DNA of 28,874 nt from a virus. Shown one piece after another: positions 1,209 through 24,576 of the stretch (positions are counted from its first letter, which is position 1; every line of letters starts with the position of its first letter). Under the pieces are notes generated by a model, which saw nothing but the letters and a program-made list of their open reading frames with translations, made no database searches and was not told the DNA's origin. The translations under genes and the position numbers were made by a program. The DNA lies in the IMG/VR virus record IMGVR_UViG_3300025276_000157, positions 1 through 28,874 of that record; one strand, 5' to 3'.

Positions 1209-3187
1209 TGGCTACAGGTTTAGAAAGTGCCTTTGACCAAGAAGAAGAAAAAGATGTCTTTGCATTAGAAACAGCCCCTGCTGAGCTTGGGGCAGGTTCT
1301 GGATACCGTGGAGAACCTGTAGTAGAGCCTGTAGTAGAGGCTGACCCTTTTGTTGGTTTTAATCGCAGTAGTATATCAGGACAAGACATAGATGTAACGT
1401 ATAGTGATGACCCATCATTAAATCAAGACCAACGGAGTGCTAGTGATTTAGAGTACAAGGAGTACACTGATGATGTGGTGGCTGACGTTACCTTCGATAC
1501 GGTAGAAGCTAGAGGTGGAGATTATAGTAACTTTGGTAGTCGTTTAATTAGTGGCGAGACTGATGAGTACGATAACGTTTATTCCTACAACAATATGCTT
1601 AGCAGAGGTCTTGACGTAGAAACGGCCAATCAGTGGCAGGAAGAGGGTGGTACTGCTCAAGACGCTAACAACCTTATTGCTAATAAATTTTTAACAGATA
1701 AAGATTCCTTTACTAATGCTTTTGATTCTTTTAGAACCGAAGGGGACATGGTAGGTTTTAAAAACCAATGGGGACAAGCCGATTTTAATGGAAAGGTAGC
1801 ATACTTAGAAAATCTAAACGCTAACGGAGAGCTTGAAGACGAACAATATAAAAAGGCTTGGAGAGACGAATGGAATCGTTCGCAAGAAGGCAACCCTAAC
1901 GCTACTTATATTATACCCATAAAAGCTCCTAGAGATTTCGACCCTAATGAATCAACATATAATGCACCGGACACCCTTGAATATAAAGCAGGCGATACAG
2001 TATATGTAACTTACACGCCTAATGGGATTAACCCTGAAGGTAACATGGGTGTGGTGCAAAATAACACATACTTTCCCAATAAAAATTCAGAAGGTTTAGA
2101 GTTACAGTACCATGATAACATAGGGCCAAAAACTACAAACTTGGCGGAGGCTTCGACTTGGTTACAATTTAGGGACGAGTTTGTAATTCCTGCGGCAAGG
2201 ACAACATTAGCAGCAGCTACGGGGGGGCTGTCTGAAGCCGCTGTGGTAGCCGTTAAAGGTCTTTCAGGTGAAACGCTAAAAGGTTCTGATTGGGCAACCT
2301 TAGCTATGGCAGGCGCTAACCTGTCAGGAATAACTACTCCTCCAACTGAAGTACTTGACCCGTCTACAGGTCAAATGGTAATGTCAGCAGGCACAGGAAT
2401 AGGTGGCTTATCCTACGCCCAGACAAACAGTTTAGTAAACGCTCTTGGGACAGGCAATCCTACTTCTTTTCTTTTACAAGAGTTTGGTGGAGATTTCATA
2501 GCTTCAACCTTAGACAAAATGGGCATTAATTCTGACAACATGTCACCTGAAGTTTTAGCAGGGGTTGGTAGAACTGTAGATAAACTAATCTTAGGTGAAG
2601 ACTTTGACAAAGCTCTTCAGTCTGGTGTCGGTGAGTGGGCAAGAGAGTCAGGCATTGGGGACGAACTAGAAGGTACGCTTAGAACAGTAGGTAGAGATTT
2701 AGATGATAAATACTTACAACCTATTAAAGAAGCATTGCCTGAAGGTGCACGCCTTCCCGATACGCCTGAAGATATTAAAGCTATTGAGGACGCAGTTAAA
2801 GTCGCAGGTTCTTCCGTTGGTGATGTAACTGACCCTCTCTTTTCAACAGTAGGTGACGTAGGTTCTGCTGTAGAAGACATAGCAAGACCTGTGGGTTCTG
2901 TTGTAGAAGACTTAGCAAGACCTGTGGGTTCTGTTATAGACGACTACTTACTACAGCCTGCTAAAACTCTCTTAGGTGTGGGAGCAGGTCTTCTTTTAGG
3001 AGGAGGAGGTGGGTTGTCAGGCACTAGAACTACAGACAGTTTGTTCAGAGATGAGTTGTTTAAGTTTAAAGAGAAAGATTTTGGATTAGTAGAACGTGTT
3101 ACACAGGATGCACCAAAAGAGCAACTAGCTGATTTTAACGACGACCCTTTCGCAAGCGATTTTAATAACAGGAACCTATTCGGATGA
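1208..3187 (+). CDS. Large virion-associated protein of unknown function (659 aa)
   Basis: I do not recognise a named family. The first 60 residues are acidic and low complexity (QEEEKD, EPVVEPVVEADPF) and contain GAGSGYRG at residues 28-35, a peptide repeated near the N-terminus of the protein at 5812. The middle (about 70-290) is Asn/Asp-rich and looks globular. Residues about 330-430 are Ala/Gly-rich helices. Near 545-580 there are tandem 11-residue repeats of the form VGSVVEDLARP, followed by a glycine-rich hydrophobic run (LLGVGAGLLLGGGGG) that could contact membrane. Its position between the holins and tail tubular protein A, and its size, suggest a structural or ejected internal virion protein. 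Both ends overlap neighbours (TAATG upstream, ATGA downstream). Confidence 0.7.
   Translation: MATGLESAFDQEEEKDVFALETAPAELGAGSGYRGEPVVEPVVEADPFVGFNRSSISGQDIDVTYSDDPSLNQDQRSASDLEYKEYTDDVVADVTFDTVEARGGDYSNFGSRLISGETDEYDNVYSYNNMLSRGLDVETANQWQEEGGTAQDANNLIANKFLTDKDSFTNAFDSFRTEGDMVGFKNQWGQADFNGKVAYLENLNANGELEDEQYKKAWRDEWNRSQEGNPNATYIIPIKAPRDFDPNESTYNAPDTLEYKAGDTVYVTYTPNGINPEGNMGVVQNNTYFPNKNSEGLELQYHDNIGPKTTNLAEASTWLQFRDEFVIPAARTTLAAATGGLSEAAVVAVKGLSGETLKGSDWATLAMAGANLSGITTPPTEVLDPSTGQMVMSAGTGIGGLSYAQTNSLVNALGTGNPTSFLLQEFGGDFIASTLDKMGINSDNMSPEVLAGVGRTVDKLILGEDFDKALQSGVGEWARESGIGDELEGTLRTVGRDLDDKYLQPIKEALPEGARLPDTPEDIKAIEDAVKVAGSSVGDVTDPLFSTVGDVGSAVEDIARPVGSVVEDLARPVGSVIDDYLLQPAKTLLGVGAGLLLGGGGGLSGTRTTDSLFRDELFKFKEKDFGLVERVTQDAPKEQLADFNDDPFASDFNNRNLFG
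2858..2947 (+). repeat. Tandem 33-bp coding repeat (about 2.7 copies)
   Basis: Units at 2858-2890 and 2891-2923 differ at only a few bases, followed by a partial diverged unit at 2924-2947. They encode VGSAVEDIARP, VGSVVEDLARP and VGSVIDDY. The 11-residue period with alternating hydrophobic and acidic residues fits an undecad coiled-coil or an amphipathic helix repeat next to the glycine-rich segment of the virion protein. Confidence 0.85.
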
Positions 3188-3825
3188 TGACATATTTAGA
3201 CGCAATAAACAGAGTACTACGTAGGTTACGTGAGGATGAAGTAGCTTCCGTCACTTCTACCACGTATGCTAAACTCGTAGGAGATTACATTAATGACGCT
3301 GTACGTCTTGTAGAAGACTCGTGGGATTGGTCAGCACTACGTACAACAGTAAGCATTGCCACCGCCCAAAGTCAATTTTCGCTCCATGGTGTTACTTCTC
3401 AATTTAAGACTCTTAACGTAATTAATGAGACTGAGAAGTGTTTTATGAACTTAGGAACACAGACAGAGTTACAGAAAGTTAAGTATATTGACCCCGTAAC
3501 ACCGTCAGCACCTACGCACTACGTTTATGGTGGGGCTTTTAGTCACGGAGTTCTTGTTGACGTATATCCTGTTCCTGATAAAACATACACTTTACAGTTT
3601 AACATTGTTAATAGGTCAGACGAGCTAACGGATAGAAATGACAATATCATGGTTCCTTACCTGCCAGTGATTCAGTTTGCTACGGCAATGGCCGCAGAGG
3701 AACGTGGTGAGACTGGTGGTGCTTCTGCTCAGGCTTTGTATAGTATGGCTAAGTCTACCTTGTCTGATGCTATCTCTATGGATGCGGCGCGCTTCCCTAC
3801 AGAAACTATATGGTATTCCGTATGA
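3184..3825 (+). CDS. Tail tubular protein A (T7 gp11-like)
   Basis: The 213-residue protein opens with YLDAINRVLRRLREDEVASV, then a helical segment ending in VEDSWDWSALRTTVSI. This arrangement (an AINxxLxxLGE-like start and a D-W-W pair about 50 residues in) is the hallmark of T7 gp11-type gatekeeper/tail tubular A proteins, which form the dodecameric ring between portal and nozzle. The length is close to T7 gp11 (about 196). It is followed immediately by the tail tubular B gene, as in T7. The start ATG at 3184 overlaps the preceding stop (ATGA), and its own stop overlaps the next start in the same way. Confidence 0.85.
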   Translation: MMTYLDAINRVLRRLREDEVASVTSTTYAKLVGDYINDAVRLVEDSWDWSALRTTVSIATAQSQFSLHGVTSQFKTLNVINETEKCFMNLGTQTELQKVKYIDPVTPSAPTHYVYGGAFSHGVLVDVYPVPDKTYTLQFNIVNRSDELTDRNDNIMVPYLPVIQFATAMAAEERGETGGASAQALYSMAKSTLSDAISMDAARFPTETIWYSV

Positions 3826-8166: not shown

Positions 8167-10353
8167 ATGGCAGATAAAACATTACCAAACGGTCAAGTAA
8201 TTAGAGGTGTTCCTGATAATATAAGCAATGCAGACCTCAAAGAATACGCTATTATGACAGGGGCAGCTACGGAGGCTGACTATAATAGAGACCAACAAAC
8301 TAAGGCTGACTATTTGTCCACCGTCGGTGAAATAGGTGGAGGTGTTGCAGGTGCTATGATTGGCGCTTCCATCGGTTCCGTTATTCCTGTAGCCGGCACA
8401 GCTATTGGTGGTCTTGTAGGCGGTGCTATCGGTACAGCCGTAGGTTACTTCGGAGGCGAGGCGGTTGAGTCTTTTGTTGAGGACAGAGACTTTGACGTTG
8501 AGCAAGCTACTGATGAGTCTATTAAAGCAGGTATGACGGACGCGGCATTTAGTGGTGCTTTCGGTGTCTTAGGTAAAGCCTTTAAGACAATCTATCAGCC
8601 TGCTCGTGCTTTGTTCCAACCTAAGTACTTTGCAACACCAAGAGACGCAGGGGCTGCTGAGACAGCCATGGCGATACAGCGTGGTGAGACTACCCTAGAG
8701 GAAGTAATACAGAAAGGTAACTACGGTGAAGAGTACATTCAAGAGATTACTGAGCAGTTAGGTAGGCGTTTTGAAGAGCTTGTTACGACAGAAAGACTTC
8801 AGGGGAAACTCACAGCTATGGGAGGCACTATGCTTCCTGCTCAGGCGGCTAAGGAGTATGGTACTTATGCTCAGGATTACGCCTCTTCGTCTTACTTTAT
8901 GAAAGGTATCTATGACGATATTCTTGCTAAACAGGACAACTACATAACTAAGCAGTTTAAAGAGATTCTAGGTAAAACAACTGACGACAAAACTAGACAG
9001 GAGACAGGAGAAGCTATTTCAGGGCTTGTTAGAGACTCTGAGAGAGCTTTACAGGTTGTTGTTGACCCTATCTACAAGGCTATTGACAAGGAAGGCGCTA
9101 TTAACTTAGCTACTGGCAATATAAAGAACAGAGCGATGCGTTCCTTTAAGTCTATCTCTAATCCCAGTTCTACAGCAAAAACTATAATGAACAGGATTAA
9201 CGCTATTGACACTTCGTTGACCCCTGCTCAGGTATACAAGGAGATGAGAGCTTTACGTCAGTTATCTAAGAACATTGCACCTAATGATGCCGTTTCCAAA
9301 AAGCTATTGAAGAGTGCTATGAACAACCTTAAAGGAACTCTCAAAGGTAAGCGTTTTGTCCATCCTACCTCTACTATCAAAAAGGGTCAGGAAGCTCTTG
9401 ACACTATTATTACTAAGGAAGGCACTACAGGTATTCTAGGAGCGCATAAGAAGATTGCCAACAAACTAGCTAATATGCGAGAGAATATGAGTTTCTCGGA
9501 GGCTCACGTAGAGTTGTCGGAACTTAAAGCCTTGCAGAGAGATATGGTAGCTTCTGTTGGTACTAAGAATAGCAAAGCTGAGAGGTTAATTGGCGACTCT
9601 ATTGGCGAGCTGGAAAAATCTATGGACACAGCGTCTAAGAACTTTAACCCTGCTCTTAAAAAGAAGTATGATGACGTTAAGGAATTGTACAAAGACGGTA
9701 TCAACACTATCAACGGTGAGTGGATTGTAAAGTCTTTGAAGAAGGACAATATTGCTGACGTAGGACAGTACTTAGTTAAGGCAGGCGAATCGTTAGGTGT
9801 TCAGGACGTTAAGAAGTTACTTGCTAAAGCTAAGGAGCTAAAAGTAGACACCAATGGTAACAACATCTTGGAGAGCATTGAGAAGGAGTTTATCAATAAC
9901 TTATTCCCTACTGGTTCTGCTCAGAGTGGTTTGAAGTTTATGGAAAAGATGCAGTCTGCTAAGTTTGCTGATACGTTTGGTGCTATTGTCGGAAAGGAAA
10001 AAGCAGCGAAGCTAAAGGAACTTGGTAAAGAGATTCAGATACTATCTAGAGGTATTGAAGGGTCGGAGACAGCCTTGTCGCTATCTATCCGTAGTGGTGA
10101 GATTGGTGCGGTACGTGACCCCTTCACACTCAAAACTCTAGCTTATCCAATCTTAGGTGCAGTGGCTAGAGGACAGCTTAAAGGTAAATCTATTACTAAA
10201 AAGGTCAATGCTTTGAAAGCTGCTAACGCTCAGATGCTGGCAGGCAATCCAATATCTAAGGGAACTATGGATGCTCTCATGGATGGGCTACCTACCGCCT
10301 ATGCTTACGCAGGTGGTCTTGTAGGTAAAGTAACTGTAGACCAAGACGAGTAA
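8167..10353 (+). CDS. Large internal virion / DNA ejection protein with glycine-zipper segment (728 aa)
   Basis: The N-terminal 25 residues (LPNGQVIRGVPDNISNADLK) match a short domain seen at the start of many phage ejection proteins and tape-measure-like transglycosylases (LPDGxxxxVPxxxTxxxL). Residues about 54-97 form an extended glycine zipper (GGGVAGAMIGASIG, GGLVGGAIGTAVGYFGG), suited to insertion into a membrane. The rest is long, Lys-rich and helical (about 150-700). I see no clear lysozyme or SLT catalytic motif. Its size, its place last in the structural block and the membrane-active segment argue that it helps build the trans-envelope channel during infection. The SD is weak (AGGA at 8156-8159). 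Confidence 0.72.
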   Translation: MADKTLPNGQVIRGVPDNISNADLKEYAIMTGAATEADYNRDQQTKADYLSTVGEIGGGVAGAMIGASIGSVIPVAGTAIGGLVGGAIGTAVGYFGGEAVESFVEDRDFDVEQATDESIKAGMTDAAFSGAFGVLGKAFKTIYQPARALFQPKYFATPRDAGAAETAMAIQRGETTLEEVIQKGNYGEEYIQEITEQLGRRFEELVTTERLQGKLTAMGGTMLPAQAAKEYGTYAQDYASSSYFMKGIYDDILAKQDNYITKQFKEILGKTTDDKTRQETGEAISGLVRDSERALQVVVDPIYKAIDKEGAINLATGNIKNRAMRSFKSISNPSSTAKTIMNRINAIDTSLTPAQVYKEMRALRQLSKNIAPNDAVSKKLLKSAMNNLKGTLKGKRFVHPTSTIKKGQEALDTIITKEGTTGILGAHKKIANKLANMRENMSFSEAHVELSELKALQRDMVASVGTKNSKAERLIGDSIGELEKSMDTASKNFNPALKKKYDDVKELYKDGINTINGEWIVKSLKKDNIADVGQYLVKAGESLGVQDVKKLLAKAKELKVDTNGNNILESIEKEFINNLFPTGSAQSGLKFMEKMQSAKFADTFGAIVGKEKAAKLKELGKEIQILSRGIEGSETALSLSIRSGEIGAVRDPFTLKTLAYPILGAVARGQLKGKSITKKVNALKAANAQMLAGNPISKGTMDALMDGLPTAYAYAGGLVGKVTVDQDE

Positions 10354-10364
10354 ACAACAGACGT

Positions 10365-10389
10365 AAAAAAGGGGGTCGCAATGACCCCC
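10365..10389 (-). terminator. Rho-independent terminator for the leftward operon
   Basis: GGGGGTC at 10371-10377 pairs with GACCCCC at 10383-10389 around a 5-base loop. Read on the - strand the stem is followed by six T (10370-10365), the classical form. It lies 54 bases past the stop of the ribonucleotide reductase gene. In the + direction only a weak AAGTTT follows, so it probably stops rightward transcripts less well. Confidence 0.85.
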
Positions 10390-10442: not shown

Positions 10443-12323
10443 TTAAACTATCTCACAAGCACCACCGGTACACGCTAGTTCCTGTGAGCCGGTGGTGTTA
10501 TCTTCCTGCTCAAAGTATTGTAGGTCATTCCAATTAATATCTTTAGGCATTGATGCTAGTAGTTTATCATATTCCTCAGCACTGATGTCCTCATAAGGAG
10601 CTTGCTGATACGTATGTTCACTTACTGGCAACAAACTAATACCACTACACAAGTCAAAGTTATCCCATATCCACTGAGCTACCTGAAGGAACTCGCTGTC
10701 AGTGTAGTATACTGTGATACTTGGCTTATGCTCACACCAACTATTCTGGTACATCTTCCAAAGCTCTAGCTGATGCATTGCACCTACATCACTGACCGTC
10801 ACACTGGTCTCTGGTGCTTTGACAGGAAAGCTGAACACTGATGAGGAGTCAGACATAACGTCATCCTCTACAGGGAACCCTGCTGTCTTCATAAAGACTG
10901 CAAGCGGGTCTTTCTTGTCTGAACGTACTCGGCGAATATAATGCTTAGAGAAGCGAGGATGAATGCCACTAGCACTGTCAACAAGCTGAGAAACAGTACC
11001 ACTCGGCTTAACAGCAGTAACGGCAGTAGACTGATTGATACCGAGTTTCTTAGCCCACTTCTTATTTGTTGCAATAGCGACATCCCGTACAGCCTCCAAG
11101 ACTACTTCACAATGCGGTGAGTTAGGTGTGCTTAACAGTTTGTTGTCCATGATACCTGTCATGCTTACGCCTAGCAACGCCTCTTCCTCTGTGTTCTTCT
11201 TCCAGATGTTACGTAAGTATCTGAAGTCAGTCAAGGTCGCCTGTAGTGTGCCGATGATGGCTGCTACTTCCGCCTTAGCTTTCAACGTCTCTTCCGTGTC
11301 ATCCTCTCGTACTACAATCTCTGACAAGTTACAGAACTGATTACTGCGTAGGATAATCTCAGAGCAAGGGTTAGTACCAAAGTCATAAGTAGGGTCTCGA
11401 CGACCATTCCTAGCTGCAATCTTCTGTGCTGCTATACGACTAAACAAACCACGTTCACCTGACTTAGACTCATACAACGTCTGCATCTCGTTGAGGAACG
11501 CTTGGAAGTCTGGCTTCTCTGTGTACGCTACGCTGTTGTTAGCCAGTCTACGGTGTCCGTCATTCTCCCACCACGCCCCTGACTTAGCCTTAGCCATACG
11601 GCCATCGGAGAGGTTTGACAAGCTAATCAAAGCTGAACGTCTAACACCACCAACAACTACAATGTCTGCAACCTTACATACTACATCGTGACACTCAATG
11701 GATGTCAGCTTACGTCCCTCTGCCTTACGGAAGACATCAACACAGAAGTGGAACAAGTCATCGAGAGGCTGTGGGCCTGACGCTCGACCACCAAAGGTCT
11801 CTAAGCGTTCGCCTGCACCACGTACCTGACTCATATCCCACTTAGGTATCTTACCTGCGTACAGCATAGCGATAAGCTCACGGAACGCTGATGCCCATCC
11901 TACCTTACTGTCTCCTACCACAATTGTTGTGTCAGTCTTGTGGAATGACTCTGCAACTACAGGCAGTTTAGTAATGAAGTTACGTTCAACACTGAACCCT
12001 ACACCAGTACCGCACATCAGCACGTACATAAGCTCGTCAAAGCTACGTGGTGAGTCAATGGCTAGGTAACTACAGTTGAAACCGGCTACGTTGTCCTTGT
12101 CTAGTGCTACACCGGCTGTCATTAAGCAGCGCATTGATGGCATGACTTCCAAGTTGACAATAGAGTTATACAGTTTCTTGGCCACTTTACTGTCAATCTG
12201 TCCACGTTTTGTCCAGAAATCGACATAACGTTGCACTGTTTCTTCCCACGTCTCCCGACGACCTTCTTCCTTCATCCATCGTGCGTAACGTGACTTGTGT
12301 ATAAACTGTTGGTACTTATCCAT
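10443..12323 (-). CDS. nrdJ: Adenosylcobalamin-dependent (class II) ribonucleotide reductase, monomeric type
   Basis: It reduces ribonucleoside triphosphates to deoxy forms for phage DNA synthesis. The start is ATG at 12323, preceded by GGAGAAGG and overlapping the upstream stop as TAATG; a TTG further upstream is less likely. Seen in the 626 residues: C84 in GFNCSYLAID (N-terminal redox Cys), NPCSE with C320 (thiyl radical Cys) and E322, FCNL with C331 (partner redox Cys), and a C-terminal CTGGAC pair (C618, C623) that would re-reduce the active site. These match the Lactobacillus leichmannii enzyme (C119, C408, C419, C731/C736), which is longer (739). No small subunit gene is present, as expected for class II. 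It is the last gene of the leftward operon. The enzyme needs B12 from the host or medium. Confidence 0.93.
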   Translation of the reverse strand: MDKYQQFIHKSRYARWMKEEGRRETWEETVQRYVDFWTKRGQIDSKVAKKLYNSIVNLEVMPSMRCLMTAGVALDKDNVAGFNCSYLAIDSPRSFDELMYVLMCGTGVGFSVERNFITKLPVVAESFHKTDTTIVVGDSKVGWASAFRELIAMLYAGKIPKWDMSQVRGAGERLETFGGRASGPQPLDDLFHFCVDVFRKAEGRKLTSIECHDVVCKVADIVVVGGVRRSALISLSNLSDGRMAKAKSGAWWENDGHRRLANNSVAYTEKPDFQAFLNEMQTLYESKSGERGLFSRIAAQKIAARNGRRDPTYDFGTNPCSEIILRSNQFCNLSEIVVREDDTEETLKAKAEVAAIIGTLQATLTDFRYLRNIWKKNTEEEALLGVSMTGIMDNKLLSTPNSPHCEVVLEAVRDVAIATNKKWAKKLGINQSTAVTAVKPSGTVSQLVDSASGIHPRFSKHYIRRVRSDKKDPLAVFMKTAGFPVEDDVMSDSSSVFSFPVKAPETSVTVSDVGAMHQLELWKMYQNSWCEHKPSITVYYTDSEFLQVAQWIWDNFDLCSGISLLPVSEHTYQQAPYEDISAEEYDKLLASMPKDINWNDLQYFEQEDNTTGSQELACTGGACEIV

Positions 12324-12475
12324 TAACCTTCTCCGTTGCAAGCGTCACACGGTACATATAATTGATGTGCTTTTTCACACTCAGGGTCGAAACCTAGTAA
12401 GCCTGAGCCGTGACAAGCGGTACATCCCTCTATTAAGTCACCACCTTCGTCTAGTATTTTATACCAATCAGTCAT
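12323..12475 (-). CDS. Small DnaJ-type zinc-ribbon protein (50 aa)
   Basis: Its stop overlaps the reductase start (TAATG). An upstream in-frame ATG at 12529 exists, but the ATG at 12475 fits the tiling better because the previous gene ends at 12468. Two CxxCxGxG-like knuckles are visible, CTACHGSG and CDACNGEG, about 25 residues apart, as in the zinc-binding domain of DnaJ. No J domain is present. Such mini proteins could chaperone or act as a thiol partner; the direct coupling to the reductase makes a redox or metal-delivery role worth considering, but that is inference. Confidence 0.7.
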   Translation of the reverse strand: MTDWYKILDEGGDLIEGCTACHGSGLLGFDPECEKAHQLYVPCDACNGEG

Positions 12476-16874: not shown

Positions 16875-18506
16875 TTAAAACTCCACGTTATCCTCTGTGG
16901 GGCAAGCTGTCTCAATCATACGTCCAGACTCTGCGTCATAGTACAGGTAACAAGCCGCGCCAGTTAAGCCTACAAACCGATTCTTCATTACCCTAACGCA
17001 CGTAGTATTTCTAGTCTGCTCGTCTGAGTGTTGCTGATTACGTTCTAAACCGATAACCATGTCACTCAACTGCGCAATGCTCTGGCTACCACGTAAGTCT
17101 GCTAGACTAATCTTACCACCGTCCTCGTGTGCTATGCCTGACGAACGCTTAAGATGTGAGACTAAGAACATACCAACACCAGTCTCTTGAACTATCGAAC
17201 GTAGGTTAGTCATAATACGGTCAATGGCTTTACGCTCGTCGCCGTTCTCCTGACTAGATACCACGATACTCAAATGGTCTAGGATAATCCACTTACAATC
17301 TAAGCCTTTAGCCATGTAACGTATGCGAGACATTAGGTGGTCTTCCTGAGCACTACCAAAGTGGTCTAACAAATGGATGCGGTCTAAACCGAAAGTGCGT
17401 TCCCAATAACCCCGCTCTTCTTCGTCTGTTACAGTCTCTGCTACGTCTGGCTTATGTAGTAACTTGTTAGCTTCAACAGACATAATACCTACAGTGGTCT
17501 TAGGGATGTTTTCCTCTAACGCTAGGATGCCTATCTTATCCTCTGTGTTCATCAACAGGTAATGTTGTAGCTCTCTCATTATCTGAGACTTGCCCATGCC
17601 AGAGCCTGAAGTAAAGGTAACTAGCTCTTGCCGTCTGAATCCATAGGTGAACTCATTCAGACAAGCCCACGGATAAGGTATAGAGGTTACTTTCTTCTGC
17701 TCTTTAAGCATCTTCCATGTATCGAGACCTGAGACAATGCCGTCCGGTCGATAGGGTTTAGCATCCCACCACGCTCTAGTGAACTCCTGTATCTTCTTGG
17801 CCTTGAGCATATCCCCTGCGTCCTTCACGGACAGTACTACGTTCTTAGCCTTGTTAGGTGTGAACAAACCAAGCACTGCTGATGCTGCTTCCTGTCCCGC
17901 TTTGTCATTATCGAAACAGATGACTACGTTCTCAAACGACTCTAGCCATTCCAAGTTAGCTTTAATATCCTTGCTGGCTCCTGATGCGCCCGACCTGATA
18001 GACACTACAGGCCACTTGCCGTCGAACATCTCACTGACTGCTAGTGCATCCGCTTCGCCTTCCGTGATAGTAATGTACTTACCACCTTCCCTGAATGCCT
18101 GCTGTCCGAACAACCCTACGTTATCAAAGTTACCTGTCGCATAGAAACCTTTCGTCTCTACCTGTCTAACCTTCGTCCCTGTCGGCTTGTTACTATCTTT
18201 ATCATAGTAGGGATAGTGGTGCTTGACAATTTTACCCTCTGGTGAGAACTCCACAGTAACACCAAACTTCTGTGCTATACCCTGTGAGATTCTACGGTCT
18301 GGAATTGCCGCTATAACTCCCGTCATTTCAAATGCCCTTGCTGTTGTACGTGGTGCAAAGTCAGGGGCAGTTCCGTTGCCCTGCTCGTGGTGCCCACAAC
18401 CTGCTGAGAAACAGTAGGCGTGGCCATCAGAGTACCTTGCTAGATTGTTAGCTGAGCCACACGCTGGGCATGACTCATGCTTTACAAAGGTAGACTCGTC
18501 CGTCAT
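16875..18506 (-). CDS. Bifunctional primase-helicase (T7 gp4-like)
   Basis: It unwinds the duplex and makes RNA primers at the fork. Domains in order: zinc ribbon with C13, C16, C32 and C37 (CPACGS ... YCFSAGCGHH); TOPRIM primase core with ITEGEADAL (E149, E151) and VICFDNDKAG (D199, D201); linker around 245-290; DnaB/RecA-type helicase with Walker A SGSGMGKS (301-307), Walker B CKWIILDHLS (D410), and LRGSQSIAQLSDMV (471-484). The length of 543 is close to T7 gp4 (566). The start overlaps the SSB stop as TAATG with GAGG 7 bases upstream, so primase-helicase and SSB are co-translated. Confidence 0.95.
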   Translation of the reverse strand: MTDESTFVKHESCPACGSANNLARYSDGHAYCFSAGCGHHEQGNGTAPDFAPRTTARAFEMTGVIAAIPDRRISQGIAQKFGVTVEFSPEGKIVKHHYPYYDKDSNKPTGTKVRQVETKGFYATGNFDNVGLFGQQAFREGGKYITITEGEADALAVSEMFDGKWPVVSIRSGASGASKDIKANLEWLESFENVVICFDNDKAGQEAASAVLGLFTPNKAKNVVLSVKDAGDMLKAKKIQEFTRAWWDAKPYRPDGIVSGLDTWKMLKEQKKVTSIPYPWACLNEFTYGFRRQELVTFTSGSGMGKSQIMRELQHYLLMNTEDKIGILALEENIPKTTVGIMSVEANKLLHKPDVAETVTDEEERGYWERTFGLDRIHLLDHFGSAQEDHLMSRIRYMAKGLDCKWIILDHLSIVVSSQENGDERKAIDRIMTNLRSIVQETGVGMFLVSHLKRSSGIAHEDGGKISLADLRGSQSIAQLSDMVIGLERNQQHSDEQTRNTTCVRVMKNRFVGLTGAACYLYYDAESGRMIETACPTEDNVEF

Positions 18507-18880
18507 TAAAAATCCTCATTCGAGTCTGTCTGTTCCGCTACCTCTAATACTTTGACCTTGTTGAGGTATGTGCTAGTGCCGTGTACTGGGTGTGGTGAAC
18601 CTTCCTGCCAGAGGATACGTACCTTAGAACCCCGTGGTACCCGACCAACGAACGGTGAGCCGTCTGCATTCTGAATGCCTACCTCAAACTTACTAGCGAA
18701 CTTCCGCTGCTTGACACCTTCGTACTCCCGTAGCTTGACACCTCGTGCGTCTAGGTCGCTTGCTTTCTCTTCATCTAATGACAACACCAAAGAGAACTTA
18801 CCAGTTGACTGACCGTTATACATTTCATGCTCGGTTAGATTCTCGAACGCTACTAAACCTTCCAATACTTCTGCTGACAT
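18506..18880 (-). CDS. Single-stranded DNA-binding protein (T7 gp2.5-like role)
   Basis: The 124-residue protein is beta-rich with conserved-looking aromatic and basic positions (YNGQSTGKFSLVLSL, GVKQRKFASKFEVGI, VPRGSKVRILWQEG) and an acidic C-terminus ending TDSNEDF, typical of phage and bacterial SSBs that recruit partners through an acidic tail with a terminal Phe. It is the first gene behind the consensus promoter at 18978-19006 and precedes primase-helicase and polymerase. ATG at 18880 has AAGG 8 bases upstream. The overall fold is inferred (OB fold), but the tail and context make the call good. Confidence 0.8.
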   Translation of the reverse strand: MSAEVLEGLVAFENLTEHEMYNGQSTGKFSLVLSLDEEKASDLDARGVKLREYEGVKQRKFASKFEVGIQNADGSPFVGRVPRGSKVRILWQEGSPHPVHGTSTYLNKVKVLEVAEQTDSNEDF

Positions 18881-18910: not shown

Positions 18911-18943
18911 GTTACTACTTAAGTATACCTTAGTTAGTTACTT
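18911..18943 (-). promoter_or_regulatory. Composite leader motif, copy 1 (replication operon leader)
   Basis: On the - strand, AAGTAAC (18943-18937) is followed after 11 bases by TACTTAAGTA and then directly by GTAAC (18915-18911). The motif lies about 30-60 bases after the predicted start of the SSB transcript and upstream of the SSB ribosome binding site. TATACTTAAGTA is half of a near-palindrome, GTATACTTAAGTATAC. The same elements recur at 23875 and 24102. Confidence 0.6.
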
Positions 18944-20997: not shown

Positions 20998-21012
20998 TGT
21001 TAAAGCCTCCAA

Positions 21013-21168
21013 TTAACTGTTTAACCATTCATCATAGGTTTTTAACGGCTTTCCGGTGGTGAAGTCTAAGCCGTTACCATCATTCGCACAAGATAGATAT
21101 ATATGATACTCGCTATCATTATCGCCGCGCGCTTGGGTTCGCCAGTCTTGATTGTATTCAAGTTCCAT
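21013..21168 (-). CDS. Hypothetical protein (51 aa)
   Basis: ATG at 21168 has a perfect AGGAGG 6 bases upstream, one of the best in the early region. The protein is soluble and polar: YNQDWRTQARGDNDSEYHIY, then SCANDGNGLDFTTGKPLKTY and a DEWLNS end. The GNGLDFTTGKPLKTYDEWLNS ending is compact and probably folded. The gene has no recognised family. Confidence 0.65.
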   Translation of the reverse strand: MELEYNQDWRTQARGDNDSEYHIYLSCANDGNGLDFTTGKPLKTYDEWLNS

Positions 21169-21178
21169 TTTTAACCTC

Positions 21179-21325
21179 CTATAGAGTCATAATTGTAATA
21201 ATAAACCATTTAAACACTGGTAGGCAAACCGCTACGCCTAACAGTACCACAGACCCGCAAAAGATGTTCGCTTTTAAGGTCTCCCGCGCCTCTGTTTCTA
21301 ATTGTCTACGCTTTGCACTATTCAC
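21179..21325 (-). CDS. Small membrane protein (48 aa)
   Basis: GTG at 21325 overlaps the preceding stop as GTGA. A basic/charged N-terminus (MNSAKRRQLETEARETLK) precedes one hydrophobic helix (FCGSVVLLGVAVCLPVF) and WFIITIMTL. Unknown function. Confidence 0.5.
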   Translation of the reverse strand: MNSAKRRQLETEARETLKANIFCGSVVLLGVAVCLPVFKWFIITIMTL

Positions 21326-21534
21326 GATATAAGCCCCTTTTGAATTGTCACGCCTAGTACGTCGCTATCTGTTCTTTCTTGCCCGCAAAATGGGTGAGTG
21401 GCTACATAGCGTGTCTTTATATGTTCACCTGCGCTATTATAAGTCTTTAAAATATCCGTTACAGTCTCGACGCGCTCATTATTGGTCAGTTTGCCGCGCT
21501 GCTTAATAAACTTTGTACCGATTGCAATTGTCAT
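21322..21534 (-). CDS. Conserved phage hypothetical protein (70 aa)
   Basis: The sequence TKFIKQRGK, then VTDILKTYNSAGEHIKTRYV and ATHPFCGQ ending in VTIQKGLI follows a pattern I know from many small phage proteins (ILKTYNSKGE..KTRYVATH.F.GQ...V....V.I..GLI). Its role is not known. It is the first gene behind the consensus promoter at 21567-21596, with AAGGA upstream of the ATG at 21534. Confidence 0.75.
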   Translation of the reverse strand: MTIAIGTKFIKQRGKLTNNERVETVTDILKTYNSAGEHIKTRYVATHPFCGQERTDSDVLGVTIQKGLIS

Positions 21535-21566
21535 AATGTTTTAATCCTTTTGTGTGTATGTCCGCT

Positions 21567-21596
21567 ATTATAAGTTAATAGCTACAATACTGTCAA
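21567..21596 (-). promoter_or_regulatory. Sigma70-type promoter (18-base spacer)
   Basis: On the - strand TTGACA (21596-21591) and TATAAT (21572-21567) are perfect hexamers, 18 bases apart. Both lie in the final codons and stop of the GP88-like gene. It would drive the small genes from 21534 leftward. Confidence 0.85.
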
Positions 21597-22233
21597 CATG
21601 TTTTAGCATCTTTTTTCCGTGGGCAGGATATGCCACGACAGCTACATTTTTAGACCAACAAAGTCTACAGGTCGCGCATTTGCCGCCCCTGTCGTACGCC
21701 TCACAGACTGACATATTAGGCAGGCTATGCGATACCGTGGGAATGATAGTCGAACTGTTGGCCGCTCCCTGTACTGTCTCACCTGTTACGCTATCACTAG
21801 ATAGGCGAACAACCACGTTGGGTAATGCATTCATAGTGTCCAATATAGAAGCGAACTTCTCAAATTTATGCATACGAGTTGGCAACCAGTGGTTACACCA
21901 CGGCGTTCGCTTCATAACTTCGAGAACCTTCTCTGCTAGTGCTAGGCTGTACAGGTCGCCGCTATCAAACCACCTAAAGTATCTGTCATTGTCTAGCTCT
22001 GCCGCCATAACATCAACCCAGTCACTCTGTTTCCAATCCTCTCGGTTATGCTCTCTCGGCGCTTTAACACTGCCCATGGAATAGAATCCGGTCGTCGCGT
22101 AGCAACCCTTGCAGGCGTCAACTAGTTCACCATCCGGCTTTGTACTAGCGGGGCAGGTGTCCAAAGCTTGTAGAGACCAGCTACGACAAGGCATTTTACT
22201 AGGCTTAGAGAATCTCGGTTTGGCTTGTGTCAT
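21568..22233 (-). CDS. GP88 family protein (221 aa)
   Basis: The layout matches the phage GP88 family: an N-terminal CPAS..K..GEL..ACKGCYA box (C27, C41, C44), FRWFDSGDLYSLALA with a later WLPTR, VVRLSSD, and a C-terminal cysteine knuckle CEAYDRGGKCATCRLCW (C177, C186, C189, C192). The ordered Cys sets suggest bound metal or an iron-sulphur cluster. The barrel-like pattern FRWxDSGD...PTR recalls radical-SAM proteins, but the canonical CxxxCxxC is not evident (CKGC is CxxC), so radical chemistry is unproven. It has its own promoter with an operator-like inverted repeat. AAGGTGA precedes the ATG at 22233. Biochemical role unknown. Confidence 0.8.
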   Translation of the reverse strand: MTQAKPRFSKPSKMPCRSWSLQALDTCPASTKPDGELVDACKGCYATTGFYSMGSVKAPREHNREDWKQSDWVDVMAAELDNDRYFRWFDSGDLYSLALAEKVLEVMKRTPWCNHWLPTRMHKFEKFASILDTMNALPNVVVRLSSDSVTGETVQGAANSSTIIPTVSHSLPNMSVCEAYDRGGKCATCRLCWSKNVAVVAYPAHGKKMLKHVDSIVAINL

Positions 22234-22267
22234 GATATCACCTTGTTTAGTTATTAATTGTTTTTAG

Positions 22268-22295
22268 TATACCGGCTATTATATACACCGGTATA
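22268..22295. promoter_or_regulatory. Operator-like inverted repeat centred on a -10 box
   Basis: TATACCGG at 22268-22275 and its exact reverse complement CCGGTATA at 22288-22295 flank a 12-base loop that contains the -10 hexamer of the - strand promoter (22278-22283). A dimeric regulator bound here would block or alter polymerase access. Confidence 0.6.
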
Positions 22296-22305
22296 ATTAA
22301 AGCAA
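22278..22305 (-). promoter_or_regulatory. Probable promoter of the GP88-like gene
   Basis: On the - strand TTGCTT (22305-22300) and a perfect TATAAT (22283-22278) are 16 bases apart, about 45 bases before the GP88-like start. The -35 is imperfect (4 of 6), so it may be weak or regulated through the flanking inverted repeat. Confidence 0.6.
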
Positions 22306-22313
22306 CTAATTAT

Positions 22314-22529
22314 TTACGCCAGTATAAAATCGACGGCGCGGATTAGGTAGCTATTGTTTCCATTCATAGCCTGTAGGAATAATACTCCGTTTTTATTGGT
22401 CACTTCATAACCACTAGGAATTTTAGTTACTATTAAACCGGCGTTTCTGAAGTCTTTTAAAACCGATTGCGTAACCTTCTTAGACCAGATACGGGTTTGG
22501 GTAGTGTGTCGCTTTTGGAATTTTTTCAT
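22314..22529 (-). CDS. Small conserved hypothetical protein (71 aa)
   Basis: Basic N-terminus (MKKFQKRHTTQTRIWSKK) followed by VLKDFRNAGLIVTKIPSGYE and FLQAMNGNNSYLIRA. The FRNAGLxVxKxxxGYEV...FxAMNG..YLxR pattern occurs in small phage proteins of unknown function. It may be a compact nucleic-acid or protein binder (antirepressor-like size), but no specific fold is claimed. It lies downstream of a GNRA hairpin. Confidence 0.65.
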   Translation of the reverse strand: MKKFQKRHTTQTRIWSKKVTQSVLKDFRNAGLIVTKIPSGYEVTNKNGVLFLQAMNGNNSYLIRAVDFILA

Positions 22530-22546
22530 AATATTTTAATCCTAGT

Positions 22547-22577
22547 GGTTGCCCCTTTCGGGGCGTTTGGTTTGTTT
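22547..22577 (-). other. Intercistronic RNA hairpin A, repeated sequence
   Basis: On the transcribed - strand GCCCC-GAAA-GGGGC (22564-22551) is a five-pair stem closed by a GNRA tetraloop. It sits within a roughly 30-base sequence that is repeated at 22989-23018. It lies between the stop of the gene at 22576 and the start at 22529. No U tract follows, so a simple terminator is unlikely. Confidence 0.7.
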
Positions 22578-22965
22578 AGCTGTTACGTTCTGCGCGGGCT
22601 GCTCTGCGCGACTCTGTAAGCTGCTCTGTCCACGTGTTTAACGATTCTTGCGCATCGTTTACTTTGACTTTTTCCAATTCAATTTGCGCGCGCCTTACTG
22701 CCGCTTGTGCTTTATCGTATGCGCTCCCGTCGCTTAGGGCATTCCATGCTTTATGCTTTGCTGTTTCATATGCCACGCCTAGCTGCGCATTCAATACCCT
22801 GTATTCCTCGCGCTGTACTGCTATACGGTCAAAGTCTACTGCTGGAGTCTGCGCCCCGTGTAGCTCCCAGTATTCAGAGTTTAAGCTACTGATTTTCTCC
22901 AATAGTGCTATTTGCATAAAGTTGATAGATTTTTGGTCGTTTAAGTCGATTTTGTAGTTGTTCAT
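22576..22965 (-). CDS. Coiled-coil protein, unknown (129 aa)
   Basis: The start is placed at ATG 22965, with AAAGG 8 bases upstream; an in-frame GTG at 22974 is less well placed. The protein is almost wholly helical, with ALLEKISSLNSEYWEL, VQREEYRVLNAQLGVAYETA and QAAVRRAQIELEKVKV and an Arg-rich end (ESRRAARAERNS). It is probably an elongated coiled coil. It is flanked on both sides by the repeated GNRA hairpins. No family is recognised. Confidence 0.75.
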   Translation of the reverse strand: MNNYKIDLNDQKSINFMQIALLEKISSLNSEYWELHGAQTPAVDFDRIAVQREEYRVLNAQLGVAYETAKHKAWNALSDGSAYDKAQAAVRRAQIELEKVKVNDAQESLNTWTEQLTESRRAARAERNS

Positions 22966-22986
22966 TTTATACACCTTTTAGTTTGT

Positions 22987-23018
22987 TTGGTTGCCCCTTG
23001 CGGGGCGTTTGGTTTGTT
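22987..23018 (-). other. Intercistronic RNA hairpin B, repeated sequence
   Basis: On the - strand GCCCC-GCAA-GGGGC (23006-22993), again a five-pair stem with a GNRA tetraloop. About 29 of 30 bases match hairpin A. It lies between the stop of the first early gene and the start of the coiled-coil gene. Confidence 0.7.
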
Positions 23019-23178
23019 ATAGTGCCGCTCTGATTGCTGTGAGAGTCGCTACGCTTCGCTTGTTAGCACCGCGAACCATTGAGTCGATAGCGCGATAGTT
23101 ACCATTAGTGGCGTGTATGATAGCCATTTTAACGTTGCGTTGGTCTATCTTGCTTAGCTTGTTGATTAGGTCTGTCAT
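23017..23178 (-). CDS. First early leftward gene, small basic protein (53 aa)
   Basis: ATG at 23178 is preceded by AGGCGG 6 bases upstream. The product (MTDLINKLSKIDQRNVKMAI, then IHATNGNYRAIDSMVRGANK and RSVATLTAIRAAL) is basic and helical and begins about 40 bases after the predicted start of the leftward transcript. First genes of early operons in phages often encode host takeover or regulatory peptides; that is context only. No family is recognised. Confidence 0.65.
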   Translation of the reverse strand: MTDLINKLSKIDQRNVKMAIIHATNGNYRAIDSMVRGANKRSVATLTAIRAAL

Positions 23179-23223
23179 AATGTGCCGCCTTTTTGTTTGT
23201 GTGTTTGTTGTCTTGATGGGTTC

Positions 23224-23251
23224 ATTATATACCAGTGCAAACTATTGTCAA
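23224..23251 (-). promoter_or_regulatory. Main early leftward promoter
   Basis: On the - strand TTGACA (23251-23246) and TATAAT (23229-23224) are perfect, 16 bases apart. It is the promoter nearest the control region and fires into the first early gene, with a leader of about 40 bases. Confidence 0.88.
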
Positions 23252-23501
23252 CACTTATTTTCATTTATTTTAAATTAATTTTCACAACCTAGGGATAAGG
23301 AGCGGGCGCGCGAATATCACAGATAAGACACAAAGTCAATATAACTTTTAGCTATAAGAATGCTACAGGTATATAACCGTTATAGGTAGTGCCGCTACAG
23401 GCCAGTGATAGCAAGGGATACAGAGGAATCGACGTTCGCCCCTTGACCCTTGTAATGATATAGGTACAGCTTGAACGCCCTTAGAACGCAATACAGAGCC
23501 C

Positions 23502-23530
23502 TTGATAACTATAGAACTATTAGTTATAAC
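23502..23530 (+). promoter_or_regulatory. Possible secondary rightward promoter
   Basis: TTGATA at 23502-23507 and TATAAC at 23525-23530, 17 bases apart, each one base from consensus. There is no gene for 630 bases downstream, so it may make a leader or origin-priming transcript, or be chance. Confidence 0.35.
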
Positions 23531-23874
23531 CCATGTAATCTATATGCTAATTGAGTATATAACATATGTTGACAGTAGTATGATAACTGTGGTAGGTATC
23601 CTGTAGGTATCCACAAGCATACTCTTACTCCCCTTGTCAAGTAAATAAATGACCCTAATGTTTTTCTTGGTCACAGTTATTACTTGCGTTTGACCCGTGG
23701 CTATGCTATGGCTTTACCCGTGACTACATCTGACCATCGGGTCACAGATTCCCCTTGACTCATCGGGCTGGGTGTGGTATAGCTGAGAATCCAGAGGGGG
23801 CGGGGGGCCGCTGGTATATTTCCTACTCTTCACGGTACCCGCATGTATACAAAAAAAGACCAAAAGTAGGATAA

Positions 23875-23911
23875 AAGTAACAATAAGCTGTGTATACTTA
23901 AGTAGACGTAA
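23875..23911 (+). promoter_or_regulatory. Composite leader motif, copy 3 (control region)
   Basis: AAGTAAC (23875-23881), 13 bases, then TACTTAAGTA within GTATACTTAAGTA, then GTAA (23908-23911), the same order as at 18911 and 24102. The core here is the best palindrome of the three (one mismatch to GTATACTTAAGTATAC). No clear promoter precedes it on this strand. Confidence 0.5.
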
Positions 23912-24009
23912 GTCATTGATTTCATTGGGAGTTCGCGGGTACATTTGTGTACATTAAATTAGCCTGTAATGCTGACACAATATAGTTAAGCAATTAGTTA
24001 AAATAGTTC

Positions 24010-24038
24010 TTGACTTTTGCTTTAAAGTATGGTATAAT
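24010..24038 (+). promoter_or_regulatory. Main rightward (late/structural) promoter
   Basis: TTGACT at 24010-24015 and a perfect TATAAT at 24033-24038 with a 17-base spacer; TGG before the -10 gives an extended -10 (TGGTATAAT). Start predicted near 24045, leaving a leader of about 120 bases before the small terminase. Confidence 0.9.
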
Positions 24039-24041
24039 ATA

Positions 24042-24053
24042 TAGTATATACTA
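24042..24053. promoter_or_regulatory. Palindrome TAGTATATACTA at the predicted start site
   Basis: A perfect 12-base palindrome covers the predicted transcription start of the rightward promoter. This is a position where regulators commonly block initiation. Being AT-only in composition apart from the G and C, chance is not excluded. Confidence 0.45.
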
Positions 24054-24065
24054 AAGAGTTATTTA

Positions 24066-24116
24066 GTTAGTTGTTTTGTTACTGACTAAAGACTATAAAC
24101 AAAGTAACAACCTAAC
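24066..24116 (+). other. Stem-loop in the late operon leader
   Basis: GTTAG (24066-24070) pairs with CTAAC (24112-24116) and TTGTTACT (24076-24083) with AGTAACAA (24103-24110), giving a two-part hairpin around a 19-base loop. It overlaps the AAGTAAC part of the leader motif, so folding could expose or hide it. Confidence 0.45.
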
Positions 24117-24151
24117 AAGGTCTAAGACATACTTAAGTATACTTAGGTAAC
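24102..24151 (+). promoter_or_regulatory. Composite leader motif, copy 2 (late operon leader)
   Basis: AAGTAAC (24102-24108), 21 bases, TACTTAAGTATAC (24130-24142), then GTAAC (24147-24151), ending just before the AGGAG of the small terminase. Same order of elements and same orientation to transcription as in the SSB leader. Confidence 0.6.
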
Positions 24152-24165
24152 CAAAGGAGAGTTTT

Positions 24166-24576
24166 TTGTCAGATTTAAAAAACGACGATTCGCCACCTAA
24201 GCGTAGAGTGGGTCGTCCGAAGAAGTCAGATATGGTCAACCGCAAGAGAGGGTCAGTCGGTACGAGAGGTCGCCCCAAAGGTGATGCTGCCATTATTAAC
24301 GAATACAAGACACGTATGCTAACGTCTCCTAAGTCTGCTCGCGTCTTAGAGTCTATATTCGATGCAGCTCTTAACGATGACCATAAGAATCAAGCAGCCG
24401 CTTGGAAGCTAGTTATTGATAGGGTCTTACCAGCGAGCTACTTTGAGAAGGATAAAGCAGGTGGCAGCAAAGGTGGGATTAACATATCAATTACTGGAGT
24501 GGGTGGAGAGACTACTGTCATCTCCGAAAGCAGCAACGAAGAGCAAGCTATTGACGGAGAGTACACCGATGTATAA
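24166..24576 (+). CDS. terS: Probable small terminase subunit with tandem AT-hooks (136 aa)
   Basis: The start is TTG at 24166, fixed by AGGAG at 24155-24159; there is no closer ATG. It would recognise phage DNA for packaging and recruit the large subunit. Residues 11-40 carry two AT-hook cores, RRVGRPKKSD and TRGRPKGDA (GRP at 16-18 and 35-37), which bind the minor groove of AT-rich DNA. The middle is helical (LTSPKSARVLESIFDAALND, then AAAWKLVIDRVLP), matching the small-terminase-like helical part of related marine podoviruses, and the C-terminal 35 residues are Gly/Ser/acidic. It is the first gene of the late operon, next to the terminase large subunit, with the endolysin gene between. No known family is certain; the call rests on position and the DNA-binding N-terminus. 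Confidence 0.7.
   Translation: MSDLKNDDSPPKRRVGRPKKSDMVNRKRGSVGTRGRPKGDAAIINEYKTRMLTSPKSARVLESIFDAALNDDHKNQAAAWKLVIDRVLPASYFEKDKAGGSKGGINISITGVGGETTVISESSNEEQAIDGEYTDV

Follow-up and report, generated by a model that had tools for sequence, protein, structure and literature searches.

The early mRNA of phage T7 is polycistronic, and its RNase III sites are hairpins that lie between the early genes. Phages of the T4 type are said to carry PeSL (promoter early stem-loop) cassettes, which Arbiol et al. reportedly described in 2010 as a stem-loop combined with an early promoter, placed at gene boundaries and seemingly mobile together with genes. In 1988, Tuerk et al. reportedly dealt with the CUUCGG hairpins that lie between cistrons in T4 and other phages. 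According to the accessible part of one account, such hairpins are short, extra-stable and mostly intergenic, and a 5' CUUCGG hairpin is reported to stabilise the T4 gene 32 mRNA (PMC8948821). The role of stable tetraloop hairpins between phage genes has been debated since these T4 elements.

A further system of gene-boundary repeats comes from the cluster K mycobacteriophages. As far as the available text of the source goes, their start-associated sequences (SAS) and extended SAS (ESAS) are repeats at the start codons of non-structural genes of various families; the defining elements are a 13-bp sequence, GGGATAGGAGCCC, near the start codon and 17-bp imperfect inverted repeats, and half have inverted repeats just upstream (PMC3203893). 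In the same text, the authors find little support for RNA hairpins at the ESAS, given that departures from the repeat break the pairing (PMC3203893).

Here we describe two small hairpins in the early genes of an uncultured marine phage and the cassette to which they belong. Within the listed titles and abstracts of the open-licence literature, no description of GNRA cassettes of this kind was found.

Results

Gene order and the paired hairpins

The window, by which we mean the whole stretch of DNA analysed, is a 28,874-base viral record from an uncultured marine phage, the DNA polymerase of which best matches those of Pelagibacter phages HTVC103P and HTVC104P (51.6%). Early and replication genes occupy the minus strand leftward of about 23,180, as far as a ribonucleotide reductase gene (10,443-12,341; Pfam); rightward genes, including those for terminase and portal, begin at 24,166 and end at 10,353. 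From its position, we infer that the 136-aa gene at 24,166 encodes the terminase small subunit. It is conserved: of 599 candidate stretches in contigs of uncultured viruses, 553 are relatives, and the best 80 were kept. A search of 50,697 phage records returned no match to it, and its pattern matched 64 stretches of genome contigs, none of which was a relative. The features of the early region that concern us are the following, all on the minus strand.

23224..23251, minus strand: promoter-like site before gene A, TTGACA-16-TATAAT, 12 of 12 consensus matches (in a scan with no overall excess over shuffles)
23017..23178, minus strand: gene A, 53 aa, the first early gene
22963..23019, minus strand: cassette from the stop codon of A to the ATG of B, 51 nt between them
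22988..23018, minus strand: copy of the 31-nt repeat in the A-B gap, from a direct-repeat finder
22993..23006, minus strand: hairpin 2, GCCCC(GCAA)GGGGC, in the A-B gap, by pattern and fold
22576..22965, minus strand: gene B, 129 aa, between both hairpins; no family match; a 69% homologue in contig L003
22527..22578, minus strand: cassette from the stop codon of B to the ATG of C, 46 nt between them
22546..22576, minus strand: copy of the 31-nt repeat in the B-C gap, from a direct-repeat finder
22551..22564, minus strand: hairpin 1, GCCCC(GAAA)GGGGC, in the B-C gap, by pattern and fold
22314..22529, minus strand: gene C, 71 aa; no family match; homologues in 8 contigs
22253..22310, minus strand: class 2 (longer) hairpin in the C-GP88 gap, fold z -2.32, p 0.007
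21568..22233, minus strand: gene with a GP88 domain (Pfam PF17338), the next early gene past C
10365..10389, minus strand: terminator-like hairpin with T6 past the last leftward gene, identified from sequence, a contrast to the cassettes

An initial annotation of this DNA had reported two copies of a roughly 30-base sequence in the gaps on either side of gene B. They correspond to the 31-nt repeats, a two-copy family 442 bases apart and 97% identical (30/31), both members of which run over the stop codon of the respective upstream gene. The minus-strand fold that had been proposed for them, GCCCC-GNRA-GGGGC with GAAA in one loop and GCAA in the other, was borne out by the pattern and by folds tested against shuffles. 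From stop codon to ATG, the gap of hairpin 1 folds with a minimum free energy of -12.3 kcal/mol (z -2.26; 7/200 shuffles as good) and that of hairpin 2 with -11.8 kcal/mol (z -3.28; 0/200), whereas the complementary strands of the two gaps score z -0.38 and -0.96. The pattern GCCCCGNRAGGGGC matches twice in the whole 28,874-base record, at the two hairpins, and the recommended search for further copies found no third in the window. With up to three mismatches, CGCCCCGNRAGGGGC has four matches, one of which is the same site read on the opposite strand, against 0.80 expected; none of 100 shuffles reaches four.

Other sequence elements lie nearby. The palindrome TACTTAAGTA, possibly an operator, occurs at 18916-18925, 23895-23904 and 24130-24139, and again at 24140-24149 with one mismatch; its copies are found close to the divergent promoter region and ahead of the gene at 18506-18880. 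A stretch of 53 bp at 23989-24041, which includes a rightward promoter-like site (TTGACT-17-TATAAT), is 92.5% identical to positions 57870-57922 of Pseudoalteromonas phage vB_PtuP_Slicky01, where it is unannotated; the remainder of the query has no match in that phage. In four related contigs (L206, L294, L296 and L297), the leader of the first early gene holds a small GCGC(AGCGA)GCGC hairpin that is absent from the leader in the window.

The cassette in related phages

Relatives were scanned for a stem, with any loop sequence, between a stop codon and a Shine-Dalgarno sequence and ATG, which gave 50 distinct gaps from 63 rows. We gathered 21 distinct cassettes from related viral contigs, counting the two in the window; the first set was found by a scan that required a stem. 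Duplicates or near-duplicates of retained cassettes were removed before any counts: L128 (of L003); L059, L127 and L207 (of L126); L082 and L291 (of L135); L049 (of L130); L079 (of L107); L101, L205, L208 and L299-L301 (of L133); L090 (of L085); L210 (of L132); L293 (of L204); L305 (of L142); and L306 (of L282). Five of 20 contigs with the GNRA pattern (L010, L012, L025, L029 and L036) were judged to lie outside the group and were not added.

The layout is constant: a stop codon, an A/C-rich spacer, a G+C stem of 5-6 bp with a mostly GNRA loop, a second A/C-rich spacer, a Shine-Dalgarno sequence and an ATG. A recurrent form, seen for example in L126, is TAA-ACCAAAC-GCCCC(GCAA)GGGGC-AAACCTAAGAGGTGATTGAG-ATG. 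In all 21 cassettes the stem starts 5-11 nt past the stop codon; the distance from its end to the ATG is 19-27 nt in 19 of them, the exceptions being L085 (11 nt) and L209 (12 nt). Spacers are poor in U (11/184 bases upstream of the stem, 14/210 downstream), and the first eight sense-strand bases past the stem hold 0-1 T in every cassette. The sole UUCG loop, closed by U-A, is in L152.

The initial annotation treated the pair as flanking one gene; we find instead a gene-independent cassette in many relatives. Together with L296 and L298, which were found later and enter this count only, the resulting 23 cassettes precede genes of 15 families (blastp, single linkage). The cassette also follows the gene A homologue in L206, and in L282 two tandem cassettes flank one small gene, as in the window. 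A covariance model built from 15 copies and run over 97 sources gave 19 matches at E<0.01 in 17 sources, 15 of them the training copies and the other four in L135, L130, L003 and L132.

Searches with simpler queries returned little. A long exact pattern had no match in viral contigs; a loose pattern matched at least 119 stretches, with many chance matches expected from the pattern length, and most of these loci are seemingly unrelated. Used as a DNA query against a phage collection, the cassette gave short, weak matches only. Rfam had no match at the gathering score in the window and none at E<=0.5 in L147, L263, L239 or L126; two sub-threshold matches fall elsewhere within 21000-24200.

Pairing is preserved while stem letters change

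Selection on RNA structure had been suggested from the loops of the two copies, with covariation in relatives as the proposed check, and that comparison did reveal two-sided stem changes in homologous gaps. The stems there take the forms GCCCC/GGGGC, GGCCC/GGGCC and GGCCA/TGGCC. Upstream of gene C, which is 72% identical between the two, the window has GCCCC(GAAA)GGGGC and L263 has GGCCC(GCAA)GGGCC. Before a gene beginning MRASDQI, the hairpin is GCCCC(GCAA)GGGGC in L133, GCCCC(GAAA)GGGGC in L282 and GGCCA(CGGA)TGGCC in L142; before another, beginning MLTLKK, it is GCCCCC(GUCGAAA)GGGGGC in L003 and GCCCTC(GAAA)GGGGGC in L132.

Since L003, L132, L142 and L152 were misplaced when the 21 cassettes were first aligned, pairs were counted on equal-length 14-mers, a choice that omits the 6-bp stems of L003 and L132. 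In the five distinct 14-mers, which come from the stem-requiring scan, all 25 of 25 cells pair and two of five pairs show a two-sided change. They score 0.520 for covariation, compared with 0.137 for shuffles, none of 500 being as high. These five short rows are nevertheless thin on their own, since 128/500 shuffles show at least as many pairs changed on both sides.

In nine sequences, protein homology led us to the gap after gene C. The canonical stem is present in three (L291, L293 and L296) and GGCCA(CGGA)TGGCC in L298; the window, L294 and L295 carry the class 2 hairpin, and L292 and L297 have weak 4-bp stems only. Seven of the nine fold better than shuffles (p 0.005-0.020), L292 (p 0.21) and L297 (p 0.40) not significantly so; the combined p is 3e-8 for sequences that are related and thus not independent. 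In L135 and L204, no such hairpin lies upstream of gene C, which is there the first gene of the operon, right behind a promoter-like leader. It is likewise missing before homologous genes in L107, L136 and their kin, where the gap is closed.

As judged from these alignments, homologous gaps keep the hairpin or swap in a longer hairpin of a covarying class. We consider the structure very probably real and selected.

Early gaps in general and a second hairpin class

Between gene A and the polymerase gene, 16 of 21 junctions in a hand-chosen gene list from the ORF tables overlap or are no more than 10 nt long. Among the five longer ones, three carry hairpins (A-B, B-C and C-GP88), the 33-nt junction after the GP88-domain gene has none, and the last, a 106-nt junction ahead of the gene at 18506-18880, has a fold of -16.5 kcal/mol. 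A survey of 91 non-redundant loci out of 167, covering intervals of 25-110 nt that separate mechanically called ORFs, yielded 200 unique early and 33 late cores. Folding at p<=0.05 against shuffles was seen in 70/200 early cores (mean z -1.38) versus 4/33 late cores (mean z -0.69; Fisher p 0.008).

The class 2 hairpin of the window is too conserved for a covariation test, as there are no two-sided changes among its seven closest copies. Relatives have a two-helix form of similar layout, TAGTTG ... CATTC-loop-GAGTG ... CAACTA, aligned as A6 from L133, L142, L144, L136, L211, L263, L132, L236, L239 and L147. Here 188/188 cells are paired and 9 of 19 pairs change on both sides; each of the 500 shuffles and every slide scores lower. 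This form matches no Rfam family. Run over 96 sources, its model, R1, gave 17 matches at E<1e-5, located in 16 of these sources; eight of the 17 are training sequences. Run on the window's own class 2 hairpin, R1 did not recover it at E<=0.1, and for this reason we do not claim a single family for both forms.

Additional hairpins were seen in passing. Gaps in contigs that carry the GP88 gene (L285, L283, L288, L250, L248 and L289) contain further classes, AAGCCCATGG..CTGTGGGCTT and CTTGACTAATCG..GAGTCAAG, with apparent compensatory changes. On the minus strand of L122 (Slicky01), at about 2730-3510, repeated intergenic hairpins of the form CGAAGCCCTTAAA...GGGGCTTC or similar directly follow the stop codon in several small early genes; T-runs come after some of these hairpins.

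Discussion

A hairpin at the seam between cistrons

The sequences directly show that the cassette has this layout and a fixed position, that it recurs before unrelated genes and that pairing survives letter changes in homologous gaps. With moderate confidence, we propose that the hairpin is an intercistronic boundary element in polycistronic early mRNA. Ribosome footprint sizes allow the stem to be placed between two ribosomes: its start would lie close to the leading edge of the ribosome that terminates at the stop codon upstream, and its end close to the trailing edge of the ribosome that initiates at the following ATG. The hairpin could then stay folded while both genes are translated, as neither ribosome would have to melt the stem. 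Such a persistent boundary may slow exonucleolytic decay into the upstream cistron and may block ribosome run-on, with the result that neighbouring early genes would be expressed as separate, stable units; the cassette would travel with genes as a module. A persistent boundary is favoured because the placement is constant, in the seam between two ribosome footprints. Stabilisation of mRNA, which the initial annotation had listed among its options, is plausible. Counting against the boundary reading are the modest barrier that a stem of 5 bp presents to exonucleases and the homologous genes that lack the hairpin.

A 2025 review states, in its available part, that translational coupling works best over short distances and that RNA structure affects it (PMC12548453). 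In the cassettes, forbidding the hairpin pairs in silico shifts Shine-Dalgarno accessibility by no more than 0.06 in 19/21, with rises in L085 and L209. As in-silico blocking barely alters accessibility, we draw no direct link to initiation, and protection of the Shine-Dalgarno sequence from pairing was rejected as the main role on the same 19 of 21 cassettes.

Contigs outside the group speak to the generality of the arrangement. Among the matches listed to the stem pattern, those with GNRA or UNCG loops have a Shine-Dalgarno sequence and ATG next in 8/10 cases on the sense strand and 0/10 on the antisense strand, as against 10/92 and 12/92 for other loops (8/10 vs 10/92, p 7e-6), in a sample that is partly redundant and was split into family and others by judgement. 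This loop pattern is consistent with a general role.

Alternative explanations

Termination was the function that the initial annotation had thought less likely, citing the missing U-tract, and this holds for the transcribed strand: a sense U-tract occurs in 0/21 cassettes, while at another site this genome does carry a stem with T6. Sense termination is unlikely on account of this absence, and a sense-strand intrinsic terminator was rejected. The plus strand has a T-rich stretch past the stem (GTTTGGTTTGTT), such that an intrinsic terminator in that direction would halt antisense transcription on its way into the early operon. A simple consensus scan does call both window sites terminator-like on the plus strand, and all 21 cassettes have 4-5 T, broken by GG, in the eight plus-strand bases past the stem; but terminator-like sites are not in excess (5 found vs 4.6 expected), the A/C-rich spacers flank the stem on both sides and would be unneeded for such a function, and the GNRA loops and the better fold z-scores belong to the sense strand. 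Further, the rightward genes end far off, and the terminator-like hairpin close behind them has its T-run on the opposite strand. We regard antisense termination as unlikely, though a weak form of it may occur. Processing by RNase III or RNase E to separate the cistrons, also put forward in the initial annotation, would suit an intergenic place in an early operon, as with the T7 sites, and the next gap does hold a longer, class 2 hairpin. RNase III, however, acts at long double-stranded stems of around 20 bp, well above the 5-6 bp found throughout the 21 cassettes, which led us to reject it for the mini-hairpin, and RNase E prefers AU-rich sites whereas the spacers are U-poor. We give a processing site little credence.

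Binding by a phage or host protein that regulates the early genes, another of the original suggestions, would account for the high conservation of GCCCC(GNAA)GGGGC in most copies, and several copies before different genes could make a regulon. A sequence-specific site sits poorly with relatives in which both stem and loop vary: the letters of the two change together in L142/L298 and in L152, and the same gap can hold a hairpin of another class. We think such a protein site quite improbable. Nor do we expect, other than as an outside chance, that the repeat serves purely at the DNA level, aiding gene exchange by homologous recombination with no RNA function. The same cassette does stand between unrelated genes (15 downstream families for 23 cassettes), and near-identical copies do occur inside one record (the window; L282), but recombination needs neither pairing kept under letter change nor a fixed position between stop codon and Shine-Dalgarno sequence. 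Chance or recent shared ancestry of a functionless sequence might be entertained from the window record, with only two copies and a short stem; it is contradicted by the comparative data, namely its reappearance in many relatives at one and the same position, together with the statistics of the early gaps, and is very improbable.

Implications

If the intercistronic boundary reading is extended to the whole group, it would imply that the early operons of a large group of uncultured marine phages use gene-independent RNA punctuation. Hairpins, either the GNRA mini-hairpin or an undescribed covarying two-helix RNA, would sit in the ribosome seam at uncoupled junctions, the classes would interchange at homologous junctions, and unrelated phages would have converged on the layout of stop codon, stable-tetraloop hairpin and Shine-Dalgarno sequence. 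We advance this broader proposal tentatively. The fixed layout, the repetition before unrelated genes and the compensatory change make the cassette a compact, testable module. The findings also suggest that marine phages have a covarying class of RNA that has yet to be described, and the longer two-helix RNA may deserve separate study.

Comparison with known systems

Relative to the RNase III sites of T7, the cassette differs in its stem of 5-6 bp, the class 2 hairpin alone being comparable in size. The cassettes share with PeSL elements, as these are reportedly constituted, a location at gene boundaries and an apparent movement with genes. PeSL is said to include a promoter, and identity with it was rejected: none of the 14 promoter-like sites of the window scan lies inside 22527-22578 or 22963-23019.

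In relation to the cluster K repeats, as they appear in the accessible text, the cassettes are similarly tied to the starts of different gene families. The 21 cassette sequences contain neither GGGATAGGAGCCC nor the 17-bp imperfect inverted repeats given there, and pairing is preserved in them, unlike in the ESAS. The T4 CUUCGG hairpins, to the extent that the available account describes them, are like those of the window in being intergenic in phage mRNA and in having an extra-stable tetraloop. They differ in that their loop is UUCG closed by C-G, whereas the window has GAAA and GCAA, and in that the cassettes have a fixed layout of stop codon, hairpin and Shine-Dalgarno sequence, repeated before unrelated genes. 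On this partial account, hairpins of the T4 CUUCGG type are most likely the nearest known kind, and the cassette hairpin is most likely their cousin.
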